This document shows, piece after piece, positions 25,137 through 31,622 of a DNA stretch of 64,000 nt (its first letter is position 1; every line of letters starts with the position of its first letter). The DNA comes from Anaeromassilibacillus sp. An172. GTDB taxonomy: Bacteria > Bacillota > Clostridia > Oscillospirales > Acutalibacteraceae. The DNA is taken from NCBI RefSeq assembly GCF_002160515.1, contig NZ_NFKS01000001.1, positions 62,001 through 126,000 of the forward strand, read 5' to 3'. The position numbers and the translations under genes were made by a program. A model generated the notes under the pieces. That model did not search any database, had not been told where the DNA came from, and worked only from the letters and a program-made list of their open reading frames with translations.

Positions 25137-25790
25137 ATGAAAATACTTGTAACCGGAACATCACAGGGCATAGGGAAAGCCATTGCCGAGTTGTTTTTAA
25201 AAGAAGGACATGATGTTATCGGAATTGACAGACAAAAATCTGAAATTGAACATAAATGCTATACACATCATCAGCTTGACGTCCGTGATTACGATAATTT
25301 ACCGGAGATTAGCGGTGTGAATATTTTAATAAACAATGCGGGAACACAAAACGAAGATGATATAGATATAAATCTGAAAGCACTTATTCATATCACCGAA
25401 AAATACGGTGTTCAAGGAGATATACGTTCTATATTAAATATCGGTTCCGCAAGCGCACATACAGGTTCGGAATTTCCGGAATACTGCGCAAGTAAGGGCG
25501 GAGTTTTGGCATATACAAAGAATGTGGCAATGCGTGTGGCAAATTTTGGAGCGACCTGTAACAGTCTTGACCCGGGCGGTGTTCTGACGCCTCTTAATGA
25601 ATGTGTTATGAATGACGAAGAGCTTTGGGCTCAGATTATGGATGAAACACCTTTGAAAAAGTGGGCAACACCTGAAGAGATTGCACAATGGGCGTATTTT
25701 TTAACAGTTACAAACACATTTTGCACAGGTCAAAGCATAGTAGTAGACGGCGGAGAGTCTATAAAACATAATTTTATTTGGAAAGATTAA
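25137..25790 (+). CDS. short-chain dehydrogenase/reductase (SDR)
   Basis: A 217-residue classical SDR with the nucleotide motif VTGTSQGIGKAIAELF at the N-terminus, LINNAGTQNE (NNAG motif), the catalytic Ser in NIGSASAH, YCASKGGVLA (YxxxK) and a C-terminal GQSIVVDGGES. Cofactor and substrate are unknown. It begins two bases after the queuosine-precursor transporter and shares its leader, so it is probably under the same riboswitch. No SDR is known to me in queuosine salvage, so the pairing is noteworthy. It is slightly shorter than the usual 245-250 residues. Confidence 0.85.
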   Translation: MKILVTGTSQGIGKAIAELFLKEGHDVIGIDRQKSEIEHKCYTHHQLDVRDYDNLPEISGVNILINNAGTQNEDDIDINLKALIHITEKYGVQGDIRSILNIGSASAHTGSEFPEYCASKGGVLAYTKNVAMRVANFGATCNSLDPGGVLTPLNECVMNDEELWAQIMDETPLKKWATPEEIAQWAYFLTVTNTFCTGQSIVVDGGESIKHNFIWKD

Positions 25791-25852: not shown

Positions 25853-25940
25853 TTAATGGTATTTTTGGCAGAAAAGATTGTTTTTCTATTATTATGTATT
25901 TGAAGAGATTGAGTTTTTTATGTTTAATTGAGATATGTTT

Positions 25941-26567
25941 TTATGTTTCATCTTTGACTGTTACGGTTATATATCTTTCTGTTGGATACTGGGAAAGCAC
26001 ATACAAATAATCTGAATTTTTCAGATAATCATATACATCAAAGAAAGGTATATTTTCAGAGCCGTTATAACAATAGGGAAGATGATATGTCTTTGTTTCA
26101 CCTTTTTCCAATGATATTCCTTGAATGATTTGCGGTTGTTCATACAACGCACCGAAGAGGTTTTGTTCTATAACAAGCCCATCAAAATCAGATAAGAGTG
26201 TGTATATTGAAGGATTTATACCCTTTTCAGAATTTATATTGGAAAATTCTACTTCCAAATCTATAACATAGCTTGCAACCTCGTATTCAGGAAGCGGCAA
26301 ATCTTCTTGTTTTATCTCATATTTTTCCATATAATCTTGAGAAGTCATCAATGAGGCACTTTTTATGTTGACTGTGTATCCTATGGGTGAATCCATAGGA
26401 TTAAATAAAAAATCATCTGTGTATTCTATTGTTTCTCCCATAGGATAATATACCTTAGGCGGTCGTGTTGAGGTAATGTTTACATACATAATTCGGGAAA
26501 TCACACCAACAAAGAGAGCAATAACAAAAATCAGAAATATAAGTTTTCTTTTTTTCATCTTCATCAC
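25941..26567 (-). CDS. membrane-anchored exported protein of the ABC operon (DUF5028-like)
   Basis: A 208-residue protein with an N-terminal signal anchor (about 8-28, LIFLIFVIALFVGVISRIMY) and an extracytoplasmic beta-rich domain. It resembles DUF5028-type proteins that accompany ABC export operons in Firmicutes; the family assignment is from memory and moderate. It is last in a five-gene leftward operon (lipoprotein, two permeases, ATPase, this protein) and overlaps the ATPase gene by four bases. A role in immunity or export of a small peptide is plausible. No lipobox Cys is present. Confidence 0.6.
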   Translation of the reverse strand: MMKMKKRKLIFLIFVIALFVGVISRIMYVNITSTRPPKVYYPMGETIEYTDDFLFNPMDSPIGYTVNIKSASLMTSQDYMEKYEIKQEDLPLPEYEVASYVIDLEVEFSNINSEKGINPSIYTLLSDFDGLVIEQNLFGALYEQPQIIQGISLEKGETKTYHLPYCYNGSENIPFFDVYDYLKNSDYLYVLSQYPTERYITVTVKDET

Positions 26568-27214
26568 TCCTCTACATTGAAATGGTCTGTGAGCTTTCCT
26601 TGTTCAAGCACGTATATTTCCTCACTCAGTTCCTTGAGAATATCTATATCGTGACATGATATTATAACCAGCGCACCTTCTTCTCTTTTTTGGACAATAA
26701 GCTCCTTTACCATTGTAATTCCGTCGCTGTCAAGAGCATTTGTAGGTTCATCCAAAACAATGATATCGGGACTTTCCATAAGGGCGCAGGCTATTCCGAG
26801 ACGCTGTTTCATGCCAAGAGAATATTTTTTATAATGCTTTTTGTCATCAGGGTTCAGTCCAACAGCTTTGATAATATCTTTTATTTGGTAGTCCTTAACA
26901 ATATTCTTTATGGAAGCCAGCATTTTCAGGTTTTCAAATCCTGAATAACCGTCGAGAAAAGCCGGATTTTCAATAAGTATGCCGACGCTTTCAGGGAAAG
27001 AAATATCCTTATGAAGAACTTTTCCGTTTATGGTTATTGTTCCGTCTGTCGGCTTTATAAGCCCGCAAATCAAACGCATAAGCATAGTTTTTCCGGAACC
27101 GTTGATACCTTTAAAGCCAACTATTTTGGGAGATGTCAGGGTAAGGGTAATGTTGTCTATTACTTTGTTTCCCTTGATTGTTTTTACAAGGTTTTCAATT
27201 TTAATTTCTGTCAT
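26564..27214 (-). CDS. ABC transporter ATP-binding protein
   Basis: A 216-residue ABC ATPase with Walker A GINGSGKTML, signature YSLGMKQRLGIACALM, Walker B IIVLDEPTNALD and switch His in ISCHDID. It is of the CcmA/ABC-2 exporter type and would drive the two membrane proteins encoded upstream. It is encoded between the second permease (nine-base gap) and the DUF5028-like protein (four-base overlap). It probably exports or pumps away a peptide or lipid-like substrate rather than importing one, because no binding protein of the importer type is present. Confidence 0.9.
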   Translation of the reverse strand: MTEIKIENLVKTIKGNKVIDNITLTLTSPKIVGFKGINGSGKTMLMRLICGLIKPTDGTITINGKVLHKDISFPESVGILIENPAFLDGYSGFENLKMLASIKNIVKDYQIKDIIKAVGLNPDDKKHYKKYSLGMKQRLGIACALMESPDIIVLDEPTNALDSDGITMVKELIVQKREEGALVIISCHDIDILKELSEEIYVLEQGKLTDHFNVEE

Positions 27215-27223
27215 AAGCTATCA

Positions 27224-28069
27224 CTATTCTTTCTCTAAAATCTCATAACGGTTAAACAGAACCGTGCTGACCACAATAGAAAATACTATTATTGACGCCA
27301 TAACTATAACTCCCACAACAGGGTCAACGCCATTTGAAACAAAGCATATGCTGCGCTGAGTCATAGCATAATTTCCTATCATAAAGGGACTTACATAATA
27401 CGAAGAAACCATAAATATTGCGGTTATCACAATTATACTGGCAAAAGGTCTTATTATCAAGGTTAAAAGCATTTGCAAAAGACACATAGCTATTGCAAAT
27501 ATAAACGGAAGTACAAATACAGTGAGAACCATGTATAAAGGTTCAGGTGACAAGTTAAATCCCTCGGGCATTCCTCCAAGTATAAGAAGCCTTGAAAATA
27601 CCTCAGGTTTAACAGTAAGCTCAAATTTTAAGCCAAAGGAAAAAGCAAAGATAAAAATGCTAAGTGCAGCAGTAAAAAAATAGACTATGCATATACAAAT
27701 GGTTGTCACACATTTAGAAAGCCACCAGACCGTCCTTGATGTGCTTGCAATCAGTACATTTTTTCCGTAGCCCATAATGTCGTTGTATGGATAGTACAGG
27801 GTAAAAAACAAGAGCAAAACAAAAATTACCATCCACATCATGGGAAAAGCAAAGGATTCATCGCCGCCGGGGATATATTCTTTCATGCCATTGAAAATAA
27901 ACATCACCATTTCAGTAATTGTAACATCTTTAATGGATATATCGGAATTTAAGATTCTCATATAGGCATCAAGTAAAAACCAGCAGAATACAAAAAAGGT
28001 AAGTATGTAGTTTTTATACTTTTTTATGATGGTGTTTTTTAAGTCGTATTTAAGTATTTTAAAAAACAT
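27224..28069 (-). CDS. ABC-2 type permease-like membrane protein
   Basis: A 281-residue protein with about six hydrophobic helices, the first at about residues 21-39 and a pair near 75-95. A large extracytoplasmic segment (about 45-75) lies between the first helices, as in ABC-2 exporter permeases. It overlaps the preceding permease gene by 11 bases and is followed after nine bases by the ATPase gene, so the two permeases probably form a heterodimer with an ATPase dimer. Family membership rests on topology and context more than motifs. Confidence 0.75.
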   Translation of the reverse strand: MFFKILKYDLKNTIIKKYKNYILTFFVFCWFLLDAYMRILNSDISIKDVTITEMVMFIFNGMKEYIPGGDESFAFPMMWMVIFVLLLFFTLYYPYNDIMGYGKNVLIASTSRTVWWLSKCVTTICICIVYFFTAALSIFIFAFSFGLKFELTVKPEVFSRLLILGGMPEGFNLSPEPLYMVLTVFVLPFIFAIAMCLLQMLLTLIIRPFASIIVITAIFMVSSYYVSPFMIGNYAMTQRSICFVSNGVDPVVGVIVMASIIVFSIVVSTVLFNRYEILEKE

Positions 28070-28907
28070 CTTTTTTCATCCCTTTAAAAAATATCGTTCC
28101 GGCAGTTAAAATTAAAAATACACCGTATACTAAGATTAAATATTCCAATACTCTATATGTGTTGCTAAGCCCGTTTATAAGGTAAAGTGGATCCATTTCT
28201 CCCCAAAACAGGCGATTTAAAAACATTGAACATGCATATGAATACAAAAAAGAAAATACAAAAGGAAAAAGCGTTACAATATATTTATTTGTTGTAAACA
28301 TTGAAACCGCCATTGCAAATGTGGCAAACAGACCGCCCAATATAAAATGAAATATGAGAATAATCACCATGTATAATGCCGGAGCTTTATAAAATAAATT
28401 GGCAAAGGCAAACGCCGGGAGTTCCGCATAGTATATACTTTCAGAAACATTTGGCATACGAAATGGCATAAAGCAGGCAAGTGTTAAAATATTCACCAAA
28501 ATTGGGATGAGCACCACAAGCCCTCCGGAGATAAATGTGGCAAAATACTTGGAGGTAAGATACTTCAATTTACTTGTACGGGTAATAATGCTTTTAATAT
28601 AGCCGCTTCTCACGTCGCTGCTGTATGACCAGCCGTAGGCAAGCACACAGATAAGGGGAATAAAGCGATAAAACATGGCAGGAGTTATACTGGTAAAGTC
28701 ACGGTAAACCGTATTGACATAAGTGTTGTCTAAAGTGGCAGACATTACATTATATCCAAATCCAGCCAGAGTGTCGAAATCTTTTTTACTTGACTGAAGC
28801 TCATATACTGCACTCAATACAGTTAATACAACAGCAAAGGCTATTACCAACCAAAATAATTTACCTTTAAATACTTTTTTCATTTCTATTTTAAATATTG
28901 CCATCAT
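28059..28907 (-). CDS. ABC-2 type permease-like membrane protein
   Basis: A 282-residue membrane protein beginning FKIEMKKVFKGKLFWLVIAF, a typical start of ABC-2 permeases, with about six helices. An extracytoplasmic loop (about 35-75) follows the first helix. VLAYGWSYSSDVRSGYIKSI (about 96-115) resembles the FxxDxxxGxxK-type region of bacteriocin-resistance permeases. It overlaps the lipoprotein gene by four bases and the second permease by 11 bases, so all are translationally coupled. Confidence 0.78.
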   Translation of the reverse strand: MMAIFKIEMKKVFKGKLFWLVIAFAVVLTVLSAVYELQSSKKDFDTLAGFGYNVMSATLDNTYVNTVYRDFTSITPAMFYRFIPLICVLAYGWSYSSDVRSGYIKSIITRTSKLKYLTSKYFATFISGGLVVLIPILVNILTLACFMPFRMPNVSESIYYAELPAFAFANLFYKAPALYMVIILIFHFILGGLFATFAMAVSMFTTNKYIVTLFPFVFSFLYSYACSMFLNRLFWGEMDPLYLINGLSNTYRVLEYLILVYGVFLILTAGTIFFKGMKKDVF

Positions 28908-29608
28908 GAGCCCTCCTTGGATAGATTCAGATTGACATAATATTTTTGTTCATCTGAATCTAAAATCTTGGAAATCAGCAAGTAAAACGGCAGATTGGCT
29001 CTTTCTTCAGGAACGGCATAGAGAACTTTTAGATTTAATTCCTGTCCCTCTATAAGATCAAAATAAAGATACTGAGTACTGGAATCTGTATAGTTTTCTC
29101 CTCCGTCAACTATGGTGTAATCAAAAACAACCTCGGTGTCAGGAAATCTGTCCCATGTGCCGCTTTGTTCACCTGTTTCGGAGGAATACAAACCAAACAT
29201 ACTGTTTATGCCTGAAAGTTTGTCCGTTCCTTTTATAAGCTGTCCTTTCAGGTTTTCGTCTGTATAAAGAAAGGTATAATCTAAAAGCAGAAATACGTAG
29301 CCGCTGTTAAAATCCTTTTTTTTGACAACACATTCTTCATCTTCTGCATAGCCTGTTTCCGCAAAGGAACTGAAAATTTTTGCGTCGTTCACAGTTACAG
29401 TGATGTGATTATCAAGCTTAATAGGCTCTGCAAATGAAACTTCAATAATGTCGGAAGATTCAGAGGCGTTATTTTCATTATCTGAGGTTTCACCATGAGA
29501 TGGCGGTTCTTTATCTTTGCTGAGTATGGATGTCACATCGCATCCGGATAAAACTAAAAGTCCAACCAATAAAACGGAAATAAACACAAAAATTCGTCTT
29601 TTTACCAT
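28904..29608 (-). CDS. lipoprotein heading the ABC operon (DUF5027-like)
   Basis: A 234-residue lipoprotein with lipobox LVLSGCDV (Cys 23), a Ser/Glu/Asp-rich linker (about 30-55) and a globular extracytoplasmic domain ending near 230. It resembles the DUF5027 family of lipoproteins found beside DUF5028 and ABC exporters; I recall the pairing but cannot verify it. It is the first large gene of the leftward operon. AAAGAGAGG precedes the ATG, and a perfect 36-bp palindrome lies just upstream. A role capturing or neutralising an exported peptide at the cell surface is plausible but inferred. Confidence 0.65.
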   Translation of the reverse strand: MVKRRIFVFISVLLVGLLVLSGCDVTSILSKDKEPPSHGETSDNENNASESSDIIEVSFAEPIKLDNHITVTVNDAKIFSSFAETGYAEDEECVVKKKDFNSGYVFLLLDYTFLYTDENLKGQLIKGTDKLSGINSMFGLYSSETGEQSGTWDRFPDTEVVFDYTIVDGGENYTDSSTQYLYFDLIEGQELNLKVLYAVPEERANLPFYLLISKILDSDEQKYYVNLNLSKEGS

Positions 29609-29630
29609 AGAAAATACCTCTCTTTCCTTG

Positions 29631-29666
29631 CAAGCGCTGTTCGCAAATATTTGCGAACAGCGCTTG
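29631..29666. repeat. perfect 36-bp palindrome in the ABC operon leader
   Basis: Two 18-base arms (CAAGCGCTGTTCGCAAAT and its exact complement) with no spacer. The palindrome lies between the 30-codon ORF and the lipoprotein gene. On the minus strand it has no T-run, so it is not a plain terminator for the operon; on the plus strand TTTT follows. It could be a processing or stability hairpin, or a binding site. Confidence 0.9.
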
Positions 29667-29678
29667 TTTTATGACATT

Positions 29679-29771
29679 TTAAAAATGACTTGAATCAGGG
29701 CTCCAGACTCCATAAATAGATCTTGTATATGTACCGGCGTTTTTTACACCAATAATCCAAAGAAAAAACAT
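29679..29771 (-). CDS. 30-residue peptide ORF ahead of the ABC operon
   Basis: On the minus strand ATG at 29771 opens a 30-codon frame ending at 29679. It has a hydrophobic start (MFFLWIIGV) and a polar, aromatic tail ending GVWSPDSSHF. The frame is open further upstream without ATG/GTG/TTG. An ATT at 29792 would extend the hydrophobic part into a signal-like helix. A TATAAT box (29817-29822, minus strand) lies just upstream. There is no clear SD. Its place directly before a lipoprotein/ABC export operon suggests a secreted peptide such as a bacteriocin or signal, but it may be chance. Confidence 0.4.
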   Translation of the reverse strand: MFFLWIIGVKNAGTYTRSIYGVWSPDSSHF

Positions 29772-29822
29772 AAGTATAAAAACACAGACAATGTTTTTTA
29801 ATCTAAAACTTTGTCAATTATA

Positions 29823-30364
29823 ATAAATAGATAAAAACAATTAACCTTAATAAAAATTTTTATTTTTTATGCATTTATATTATCATACATAATTTTTAAT
29901 GTCAATACTGTATTTATAAAAAGTTAAAAAAATTCAAAATATAATATACTTTTGTGGTTATAAAGAAAATATATATTTAGTTTTTTTTATAAATAGTTTA
30001 TATAAAATAAAACAATTTGAAATATAACGATATAATGCACGTTTAAACTCGTGATATTATAATAAATTCTTAAATTTTATTTTTAATGCTTACAGAGAAA
30101 TAATAAAATGCAATCAATAGCCAAATCCGACGAATAGGTATTTTAAATAAATGAACTCAATATTTCAATTAAATCAAAACAGTGTTTTATTCAAAAACGG
30201 ACGCTTGCGATATTAGGACTTTAATACAAATGCAAAAAAGCTAATCAAGATTTTGATTTTTGGTTGGCTTATTTGTTTTTGTTAAATTTATTGAATTATA
30301 TAATTATAAGTAGTATAATAAAATCAAACAACATGAATAAAACTTTGAATGTTAATAAGAAAAT
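29823..30364. other. AT-rich intergenic stretch with a terminator-like hairpin
   Basis: About 540 very AT-rich bases between the leftward peptide ORF and the rightward gene at 30365. The only structure I see is a hairpin at about 30236-30280 (AAGCTAATCA with TGGTTGGCTT via G-U pairs, then T-rich). It would stop rightward RNA, yet no rightward gene precedes it. Confidence 0.5.
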
Positions 30365-30856
30365 ATGGGGGTGAAAAATATTGTTTATAATTTAATGATA
30401 AATTTTGAAGATATAATAAATCATCAAATTGAACTATTGAGGTATGCAGGAAAAAATTCAGATACGTTTACTGTTATTACAACTCTTAAAAAGCCATATT
30501 CAAAGCGACCACCAAATTTTATCCATGACAAAATAATGATGGAACTGTCCCCTTATATGGTAGATTATATTGTTGGTATAAAAGAATGGCCTGGTACATA
30601 TCGAAGTGGGGGAAGTCATACTGTTATGCTTACCTATCGATTATGTAAAAACAGTAGGTACCTATTGGAAAAATTGGAGAATTGGTATTTACCTTTGAAA
30701 AATGGTCTCCCAGAGGATATATGTTTTTACAGAAAACAAAGACCATGGTTTGGAAGTGTTTCCCACGAAAAAATGGCGTTTATGTGGAATGCAACCGAAA
30801 GTGATCTTACTAATTTAGAAAACCTTTCAATTAAATTTTCAATTCAGAATAAATAA
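30365..30856 (+). CDS. uncharacterised conserved-looking soluble protein
   Basis: A 163-residue soluble protein with no signal or membrane segment. It has coherent composition and patterns such as TVITTLKKPYSKRPPNF and VDYIVGIKEWPGTYRSGGSH, which look like a real folded domain. I do not recognise the family with confidence. The start is uncertain: the ATG at 30365 itself overlaps the only SD-like run (GGGGGTG at 30367-30373), and GTG 30371 is an alternative. It precedes a secreted protein gene by 28 bases, possibly in one operon. Confidence 0.55.
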   Translation: MGVKNIVYNLMINFEDIINHQIELLRYAGKNSDTFTVITTLKKPYSKRPPNFIHDKIMMELSPYMVDYIVGIKEWPGTYRSGGSHTVMLTYRLCKNSRYLLEKLENWYLPLKNGLPEDICFYRKQRPWFGSVSHEKMAFMWNATESDLTNLENLSIKFSIQNK

Positions 30857-30884: not shown

Positions 30885-31622
30885 ATGAAAAAACTGACAT
30901 CAGCTTTAATATCAATATTTTTTATTATTGTATTTTGGGATATTTTTGTTTTATCTGCTTTCGCTTCGACAATACATACCGGTTTTGAAACAGAGATACT
31001 TACTTCAAGTGAAGAGAAAGAAATATTATCTAATTTCGAAATTAATAAAATTACAGAAGAGGGAGATAAAAAAGCTATAGAATGTTTTGATGTAAATGAA
31101 AAAGGAAACATTGCTGTTGGTTCTTCTGACTTTCTCAAAAGAATTATAAAAATTTATTCAGAAGATGGAGCTTTTCAATACGGATTTGAGTTTGAAACTG
31201 CAGGAAAATTTGGGCTGGAGTGGGACAATGATAATATTTTGATTTATAACGTTAGAGGTAATATTGTGATTTCAGTAGATTCAAAAGGTGATGTTGTAGC
31301 TGTTGATAAAATAGCAGATACAATAAATAACCAGTTGTATTGGAAAAATACAGTTTATGCTACAAAGAGGACAAATAATAACAAAACATACGAAATCAGA
31401 AACGATATGGGACCGTTGAATATATTCTCATTCAATTATTCCCAATTACTGATTACAGATCAAAACAGTGATGTTAAAATTATTTATGATGTTAATAGTT
31501 ATCAAATCACTAAATACATTATAATAATCATTATTATAATCAGTATTATTGTGTTCATTATAATTCCTACAATATATAAACTTTATAAAGATGGCAAGAA
31601 AAAACATAATATATATTTCTAA
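30885..31622 (+). CDS. uncharacterised exported protein with C-terminal membrane helix
   Basis: A 245-residue protein with a signal peptide (MKKLTSALISIFFIIVFWDI, cleavage probably after SAFA), an extracytoplasmic domain rich in beta strands (about 30-205) and a very hydrophobic Ile-run helix (about 209-229), then a basic tail (KLYKDGKKKHN). This is the topology of a surface-exposed, membrane-anchored protein. Repeated short patterns (IAVGSSDFLKRI, IYNVRGNIVISVDSKGDVVA) suggest a beta-propeller-like fold. AGAAAGG precedes the ATG. Function not recognised. Confidence 0.6.
   Translation: MKKLTSALISIFFIIVFWDIFVLSAFASTIHTGFETEILTSSEEKEILSNFEINKITEEGDKKAIECFDVNEKGNIAVGSSDFLKRIIKIYSEDGAFQYGFEFETAGKFGLEWDNDNILIYNVRGNIVISVDSKGDVVAVDKIADTINNQLYWKNTVYATKRTNNNKTYEIRNDMGPLNIFSFNYSQLLITDQNSDVKIIYDVNSYQITKYIIIIIIIISIIVFIIIPTIYKLYKDGKKKHNIYF

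Follow-up and report, generated by a model that had tools for sequence, protein, structure and literature searches.

Analysis of a 64,000-nucleotide stretch of the genome of Anaeromassilibacillus sp. An172 (contig NZ_NFKS01000001.1, positions 62,001 to 126,000; hereafter the window) points to a decayed gene cluster, in which the relic of a DUF2712-like gene and an intercistronic hairpin precede an exporter/immunity operon that has persisted, a reading to which we give a probability of roughly 0.77 on the basis of sequence comparison. The tiny reading frame ahead of the operon is most likely the 3' relic of a gene for a secreted protein, as judged by its C-terminal residues, and the palindrome beside it occupies the position of a stem-loop that has an unrelated sequence in relatives. 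Rather than a new peptide, the site is probably the remnant of a secretion system so far unstudied; since the relic is probably not functional, the direct importance of this one site is moderate. What began as a vague lead of a peptide and a palindrome has become a testable family, in which uncharacterised secreted proteins sharing a conserved tail are accompanied by a hairpin and followed by an exporter operon.

The operon, the palindrome and the short frame in the window

The five-gene operon (25941-29608, minus strand) encodes a 234-residue lipoprotein (28904-29608), permease 1, an ABC-2-like membrane protein of 282 residues (28059-28907), permease 2 with 281 residues (27224-28069), an ABC transporter ATPase of 216 residues (26564-27214; ABC_tran, E 2e-29) and a membrane-anchored DUF5028-like protein of 208 residues (25941-26567; E 1.1e-6, 29.4 bits), all on the minus strand and in the order that a sequence-only reading of this DNA had given. 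The window thus shows the succession by which we recognized a cluster, namely a lipoprotein or membrane protein, two permeases, an ATPase and a DUF5028-like protein. The likeness of the lipoprotein to DUF5027 (E 0.062) and of permease 2 to DUF2705 (E 0.027) is weak and below cut-off, and the scores against the curated cut-offs for DUF5027 (PF16430; 13.4 vs. 25 bits) and DUF5028 (PF16431; 29.4 vs. 29.9 bits) indicate resemblance only. No copy of the lipoprotein was found in viral contigs. PADLOC matches of the ATPase (mad3, E 6e-23, plus weaker ones) were judged to reflect general ATPase similarity.

Upstream of the lipoprotein gene, its ribosome-binding region (AGGAAAGAGAGG; 29609-29630, minus strand) comes directly after a perfect palindrome, CAAGCGCTGTTCGCAAAT/ATTTGCGAACAGCGCTTG, at 29631-29666, which has arms of 18+18 nt, no spacer and a 100% match over 36 bp, and which on the minus strand would fold into a hairpin with a 16-bp stem and a 4-nt loop. 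As the sole loopless perfect palindrome with arms of at least 10 bp in the 247-kb contig, with a 26-bp core that occurs once in the 2.81-Mb genome even when up to 3 mismatches are allowed, it is beyond chance and does not belong to a repeat family. A search for the core in viral contigs found no copy, and Rfam gave two matches only, each far below its gathering score. The stop codon of the putative relic lies 12 nt before the stem and the lipoprotein start 22 nt after it, and the gap between that stop and that start has a folding z of -6.8. Past the stem, the operon strand reads CAAGGAAA; with no T-run there, the palindrome lacks the mark of an intrinsic terminator in the direction of the operon. 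That the palindrome might instead serve as a terminator for rightward (plus-strand) transcription, displaced or coincident, is suggested by the TTTTAT that follows the stem in that direction; we hold this to be very unlikely, given that no plus-strand gene ends just before it, that only transcription antisense to the operon could reach it, that a separate hairpin-like sequence lies close to the plus-strand gene that ends at 25790, and that the position fits the hairpin of the family instead.

The short frame consists of 30 codons and a TAA (MFFLWIIGVKNAGTYTRSIYGVWSPDSSHF; 29679-29771, minus strand) inside a 44-codon stop-to-stop frame (29679-29813, minus strand) that is the probable 3' relic of a secreted-protein gene. 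What can be recognised in it are the final dozen residues, TRSIYGVWSPDS, which match the C-terminus of DUF2712-like secreted proteins; the end, GVWSPDSSHF, has the G-x-W-S-P-D-S near the stop that is typical of the family. When all 6,899 stop-to-stop frames in the contig were scored with a C-terminal profile of 25 positions, the 44-codon frame came first (E 9.4e-4, with a C-terminal weight inflated by building the profile on proteins first chosen for a W.P[DENS] tail), the runner-up (E 0.78) being a WSPDS located 24 residues from the end of an unrelated 31-aa frame. The motif W[ST]PD occurs five times in the 6,899 frames, and only in the window frame does it lie within 10 residues of the frame end. 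Similarly, among 2,000 random 756-bp stretches drawn from the contig, 1,562 of which were scored, the three that exceeded 7 bits (14.6-14.9) all contain the relic and start at contig positions 91195-91380. The full-length profile again placed the window frame first in the contig, yet with an E of 0.18, and the frame was not listed in a whole-genome search with the full alignment. Homology is recognisable over only about 12 residues, and a scan of the 756 bp ahead of the operon, in which stops were read as X, gave no other credible family segment. Full-length members have 137-167 residues, a signal peptide and a conserved N/K/E core; the window frame, with only 44 codons and no further credible segment upstream, is therefore termed a relic and not a member gene. 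The hydrophobic N-terminal part of the frame may derive from eroded signal-peptide codons or simply be what T-rich DNA happens to encode.

We also weighed whether the frame encodes a working mini-protein, formed by an in-frame deletion that fused a signal-peptide-like N-terminus to the WSPDS tail, and exported or sensed via the operon. Its N-terminus is basic-hydrophobic and was aligned by MAFFT with the signal peptides of the family, its tail is conserved and its frame is open over 44 codons. On the other hand, no purine-rich Shine-Dalgarno sequence precedes the ATG of the 30-codon ORF, no ATG, GTG or TTG comes before that ATG within the hydrophobic stretch, the hydrophobic half scored alone gives -1.7 bits, and the ORF is absent from the only congener found to have the operon. 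We regard a working mini-protein as improbable, and the proposal of the sequence-only reading that the tiny ORF is a peptide gene finds no support in these data, the ORF being better described as the tail of a 137-167 aa family. The more basic observations in that reading, i.e. the 30-codon ORF, a TATAAT upstream of it and a spacer-free perfect 36-bp palindrome, were all confirmed in place, and its rejection of a plain-terminator role for the palindrome was likewise upheld.

The TATAAT lies at 29822-29817 (minus strand), 45 nt before the ATG, with no -35 partner at the scan threshold; the best upstream promoter pair is TTGACA-17-TAATAT at 29905-29877 (minus strand). Promoter-like sites are not in excess between 28800 and 36000 (20 found vs. 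23.8 expected), and claims about promoters were dropped. The 756 bp upstream of the operon contain 22% G+C overall, and the 545 bp from the relic to the next gene (29820-30364) contain 18%, compared with 41% for the window. Neither the intergenic DNA in plasmids nor the 30-codon ORF in plasmids or phages yielded a copy, the best matches of the ORF having E values of 0.5 and 9. Farther on, two plus-strand genes before the kdp genes, 30365-30856 and 30885-31622, are without a credible Pfam match, and by eye the product of the latter has a signal-peptide-like start and a membrane anchor in the form of an isoleucine run.

WSPDG-like motifs are a feature of WD40/PD40 beta-propellers, and a fragment of such a protein was considered as a source of the tail. 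This idea was dropped because the loci of weak ORF matches, except the window's own, are without such a tail (one unrelated FSPSGS was seen among them), and also because the relatives of the operon account better for it. In the home genome (G000) and the congener (G001), no full-length copy of a DUF2712-like gene was detected: PF10916 (DUF2712) matched neither, and our own alignment gave 21 weak matches in the two genomes (best E 0.006), mostly to the signal-peptide end, none of which reaches WSPDS.

Secreted-protein genes and stem-loops at related loci

Of 300 genomes of the family, 40 have relatives of permease 1, a count that takes in G000 and G001. Outside these two, 36 stretches covering 38 of 47 permease places were fetched, with the nine weakest left out, and together with three DUF5027 loci they make up 39 related loci, which were scanned for a W.P[DENS] tail and from which signal-peptide proteins and fragments were then picked by eye. 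Fourteen of the 39 hold 15 DUF2712-like ORFs that end in WSPDS or WSPDC plus 1-13 residues. Thirteen of the 15 are whole, with 137-167 residues and a signal-peptide start, and these were aligned (A1); L085 and L111, both lacking the N-terminus, were left out. The 13 aligned proteins share a common signal-peptide-like start and have A27, N29, K52, E109 and WSPD invariant; PF10916 matches 7 of the 13 at E <= 1 and, of six listed singly, three are over the cut-off. A PDB sequence search with the family profile returned nine antibody light chains (E >= 0.057), which were judged to be chance.

In 14 of the 15 cases the secreted-protein ORF precedes the permease genes and shares their strand, and the profile-based gene order in these is secreted gene, permease 1, permease 2, ATPase and DUF5028, some being cut by a contig end. 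Exceptions to this order are L085 and L109 (a later find), in which the secreted gene comes after the operon, L046 and L096, with the DUF5028-like gene elsewhere, and L103, in which no permease 2 or ATPase was seen. Because phmmer at E 1e-5 found no relative of the window lipoprotein in the 39 loci, its position was matched by place and look. These loci bear out the likeness to a structural gene with immunity or export genes that the sequence-only reading had proposed, inasmuch as relatives comprise a secreted-protein gene, a stem-loop and a like operon; as to conservation ahead of related operons, the peptide as such is not conserved, whereas the larger gene from which the ORF seems derived is.

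A search with the alignment profile found members in 17 of 398 genomes of the family. By comparison, PF10916 is too narrow for these Clostridia, having matched 1 of 398 genomes of the phylum, and the DUF5027 model matched 2 of 394 genomes of the order, the window's own not among them. From 28 profile-matched frames we kept 27 members, leaving out one N-terminal piece of L085; 22 of them have WSPD and 5 have WSVD, WSAD or WKQD. Twelve members were added by the profile (7 with WSPD, 5 with WSVD, WSAD or WKQD), of which only L124 came via Pfam's own model. Two of the surroundings deserve a remark of their own: L102 (5754-15796) has two secreted-protein/ABC clusters in tandem in one genome, and in L105 (8527-9060) the cluster comes directly after rpsB- and tsf-like genes (by eye), which is unusual for an accessory module.

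Many fetched operons have no secreted gene. A parallel loss seems to have taken place in L148 (1528-1653, G077), where a 41-aa C-terminal relic ending in GVWSPDSYV stands before a membrane-anchored gene. In L101 (G540), the operon has a hairpin and the secreted gene was not found; in L083 (G291), the hairpin is missing and the sole trace of the gene is a weak signal-peptide-like piece (4.2 bits). Among operons without a secreted gene, a hairpin is present in L101 and L079 (at a contig edge) and absent from L083, L084, L098 and L106; four others gave no usable upstream gene and one stood at a contig edge. These relics and orphan operons suggest that the secreted protein was lost and the operon kept, as is the case with orphan immunity genes.

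In the gap after the stop of the secreted gene, most relatives have strong stem-loops whose stem sequences are unrelated. Where this gap measured 45-110 nt, 18 of 18 relatives had a hairpin at z <= -2.5 (median -4.2), compared with 10 of 43 size-matched control gaps that separate other genes read in one direction (median -1.0; Fisher p 1e-8, Mann-Whitney p 5e-7), the controls being based on rough ORF picking. The distances in the window, 12 nt from stop to stem and 22 nt from stem to start, are inside the range of the relatives. Over the whole member set, 19 of 27 had a hairpin at this threshold; the other eight comprise three with gaps of 23-24 nt, two with long gaps, one with a mismeasured gap and two that are at or near a contig end or have no next start. 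Excluded from the test were L113, L124 and L146 (gaps of 23-24 nt), L085, L094 and L095 (>250 nt as measured), and L134, L143 and L137, in which no next start was found, with L143 itself at z -4.5. The long gaps of L085 and L094 show no hairpin in the first 100 nt, and in L095, despite its measured gap, a start lies at +71 and a hairpin was recognised by eye. Since the gaps of 23-24 nt and the long ones of L085 and L094 lack a hairpin, we consider it frequent and not universal.

Permease 1 lies within 2.6 kb downstream in 16 of the 18 relatives tested; in 14 it is preceded by a lipoprotein-like or membrane-anchored gene, and in two it follows at once. The 18 also include L109, in which the next gene is not the first of the operon, the secreted gene being located after it, and L148, for which no permease was seen in the 1.5 kb examined. 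A T-rich tail (at least 4 T in the 8 bases after the stem) was present in 6 of 18 relatives, so the terminator reading would fit about a third of their hairpins. G-U pairs in the stems number 22 on the sense strand vs. 9 on the antisense strand, an excess consistent with selection acting at the RNA level on the operon strand; the sense strand was the more stable in 13 of 18, which is not significant (p 0.085), the helix chosen for L100 in this comparison being a small inner one of 4 pairs.

These stem-loops bear on an alternative in which a dimeric or tetrameric regulator of the operon would bind the palindrome as its DNA operator, a role that would suit the perfect, spacer-free symmetry next to the ribosome-binding region. 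The stem-loops of relatives are, however, unrelated in sequence, with loops of 3-18 nt and with G-U pairs, features that a shared operator would not tolerate; the core has no second copy in the genome at up to 3 mismatches, and no shared regulator gene was seen by eye upstream of the ten clusters listed. We deem an operator improbable. The sequence-only reading had left a choice between an RNA-processing hairpin and a regulator site; a hairpin is favoured by a position that is kept in relatives, and the unrelated stems count against the regulator site.

The copy of the operon in a congener

Among 60 genomes, the lipoprotein gene is present in two, the window's own and that of one congener (G001), and a scan of a species-genome collection, which reaches close relatives only, returned the same congener (MAG contig CALWIW010000003). 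The block common to both (25934-29626 in the window, minus strand; G001:C3 29952-33641) is 95% identical and stands at another locus; its right edge ends 5 bp short of the palindrome. Three other aligned blocks are 80-83% identical. This difference in identity, together with the different loci, suggests that the operon was transferred or translocated as a cassette. Upstream of the lipoprotein gene, the congener has neither the 30-codon ORF nor the palindrome, nor a stem-loop (z -0.8 and -0.2 at two possible starts). Searching G000 with the upstream flank of the congener gave no match (without a positive control), and neither did searching G001 with the flank of the window among the 40 of 74 candidates scored (likewise without a positive control).

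A last alternative is chance, with a random short frame beside an unrelated palindrome, or a contig wrongly joined at the palindrome; the low G+C of 29820-30364 (18%) and the different location of the operon in the congener make a join error conceivable. Nevertheless, the sole W[ST]PD within 10 residues of a frame end has the strand and position that the family would call for, and relic and operon flank the palindrome in the order of the relatives, which is hardly the product of a false join; we consider chance or an assembly join exceedingly unlikely as the origin of the arrangement. The decayed cluster stays our preferred reading.

Proposed function and known systems

Drawing on gene order and the position of the hairpin, we propose that in intact clusters one promoter would drive all genes, and that the hairpin may protect the 3' end that processing leaves on the mRNA of the secreted protein, halt a fraction of the polymerases, or do both. 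The outcome would be much secreted protein and little exporter/immunity protein, with the operon presumably exporting the secreted protein or protecting its producer. In this genome, the secreted protein would have been lost, leaving the operon as an orphan exporter or immunity operon and the hairpin in what would now be its 5' leader, such that only hairpin and operon would still act. More speculatively, and with considerable doubt, DUF2712-like proteins with their usual WSPDS tail, the hairpin and an ABC/lipoprotein operon of their own might constitute a class not yet described, made up of antibacterial or cell-surface proteins that are secreted via Sec, come with an immunity dedicated to them and are carried as small cassettes in Clostridia and on Bacillus plasmids, with effector-less genomes keeping orphan immunity.

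Bacteriocin clusters (lactococcin 972, lantibiotics) have a short secreted product, a hairpin and then transport or immunity genes. The layout is alike; Lactococcin_972 (PF09683) is not among the seven Pfam families that match the 13 relatives at E <= 1, and in the genome search it matched nowhere, controls included. In the literature searched, where no paper carries the name DUF2712, we found no report of antibacterial activity for it; similarly, the open literature searched gave no paper naming DUF5027, DUF5028 or DUF2705. Compared with the DUF2712 family, the window holds only the C-terminal end, with no full-length copy found in its own genome.

A match of PF10916 was obtained in the B. 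subtilis control genome, in which the protein is probably YybN of the yybN-yybM-yybL-yybK(-yybJ) operon. Passages in two papers describe that operon as horizontally acquired and of unknown function, and as a Rok target beside sdp, sun and sbo genes (PMC2978689, PMC11841835). A third tabulates and models YybJKL as an ABC exporter that has two membrane proteins and whose function is unknown (PMC11466899). The idea that the effector is lost and the operon kept offers a concrete hypothesis for the yybN operon. Another parallel to the window is the DUF5027/DUF5028 ABC operon of G037 (L045), which has the same gene order with a secreted WSPDS protein and a stem-loop in front, but differs in that the secreted protein is intact and that upstream there is another secreted ORF as well as an ECF sigma/anti-sigma-like pair (by eye).

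Bacillus plasmids of the rolling-circle type (e.g. NZ_CP033053 and pS499 = NZ_CP014701) have two such genes, with both proteins ending in FLWSPDSR and a hairpin with a T-run after the second gene and before lepB; unlike the clusters above, they have a signal peptidase gene (lepB/sipP) in place of the ABC operon, and its location next to these genes suggests a dedicated peptidase for them. One plasmid protein is 35% identical to the relative in L113, and 30 plasmid records hold relatives of it. In pS499, the remaining plasmid genes are labelled hypothetical in a figure legend (PMC5243856). Small mobilizable Bacillus plasmids (L149 2010-2945, L150, L151) have two genes of this type in tandem before lepB/sipP.
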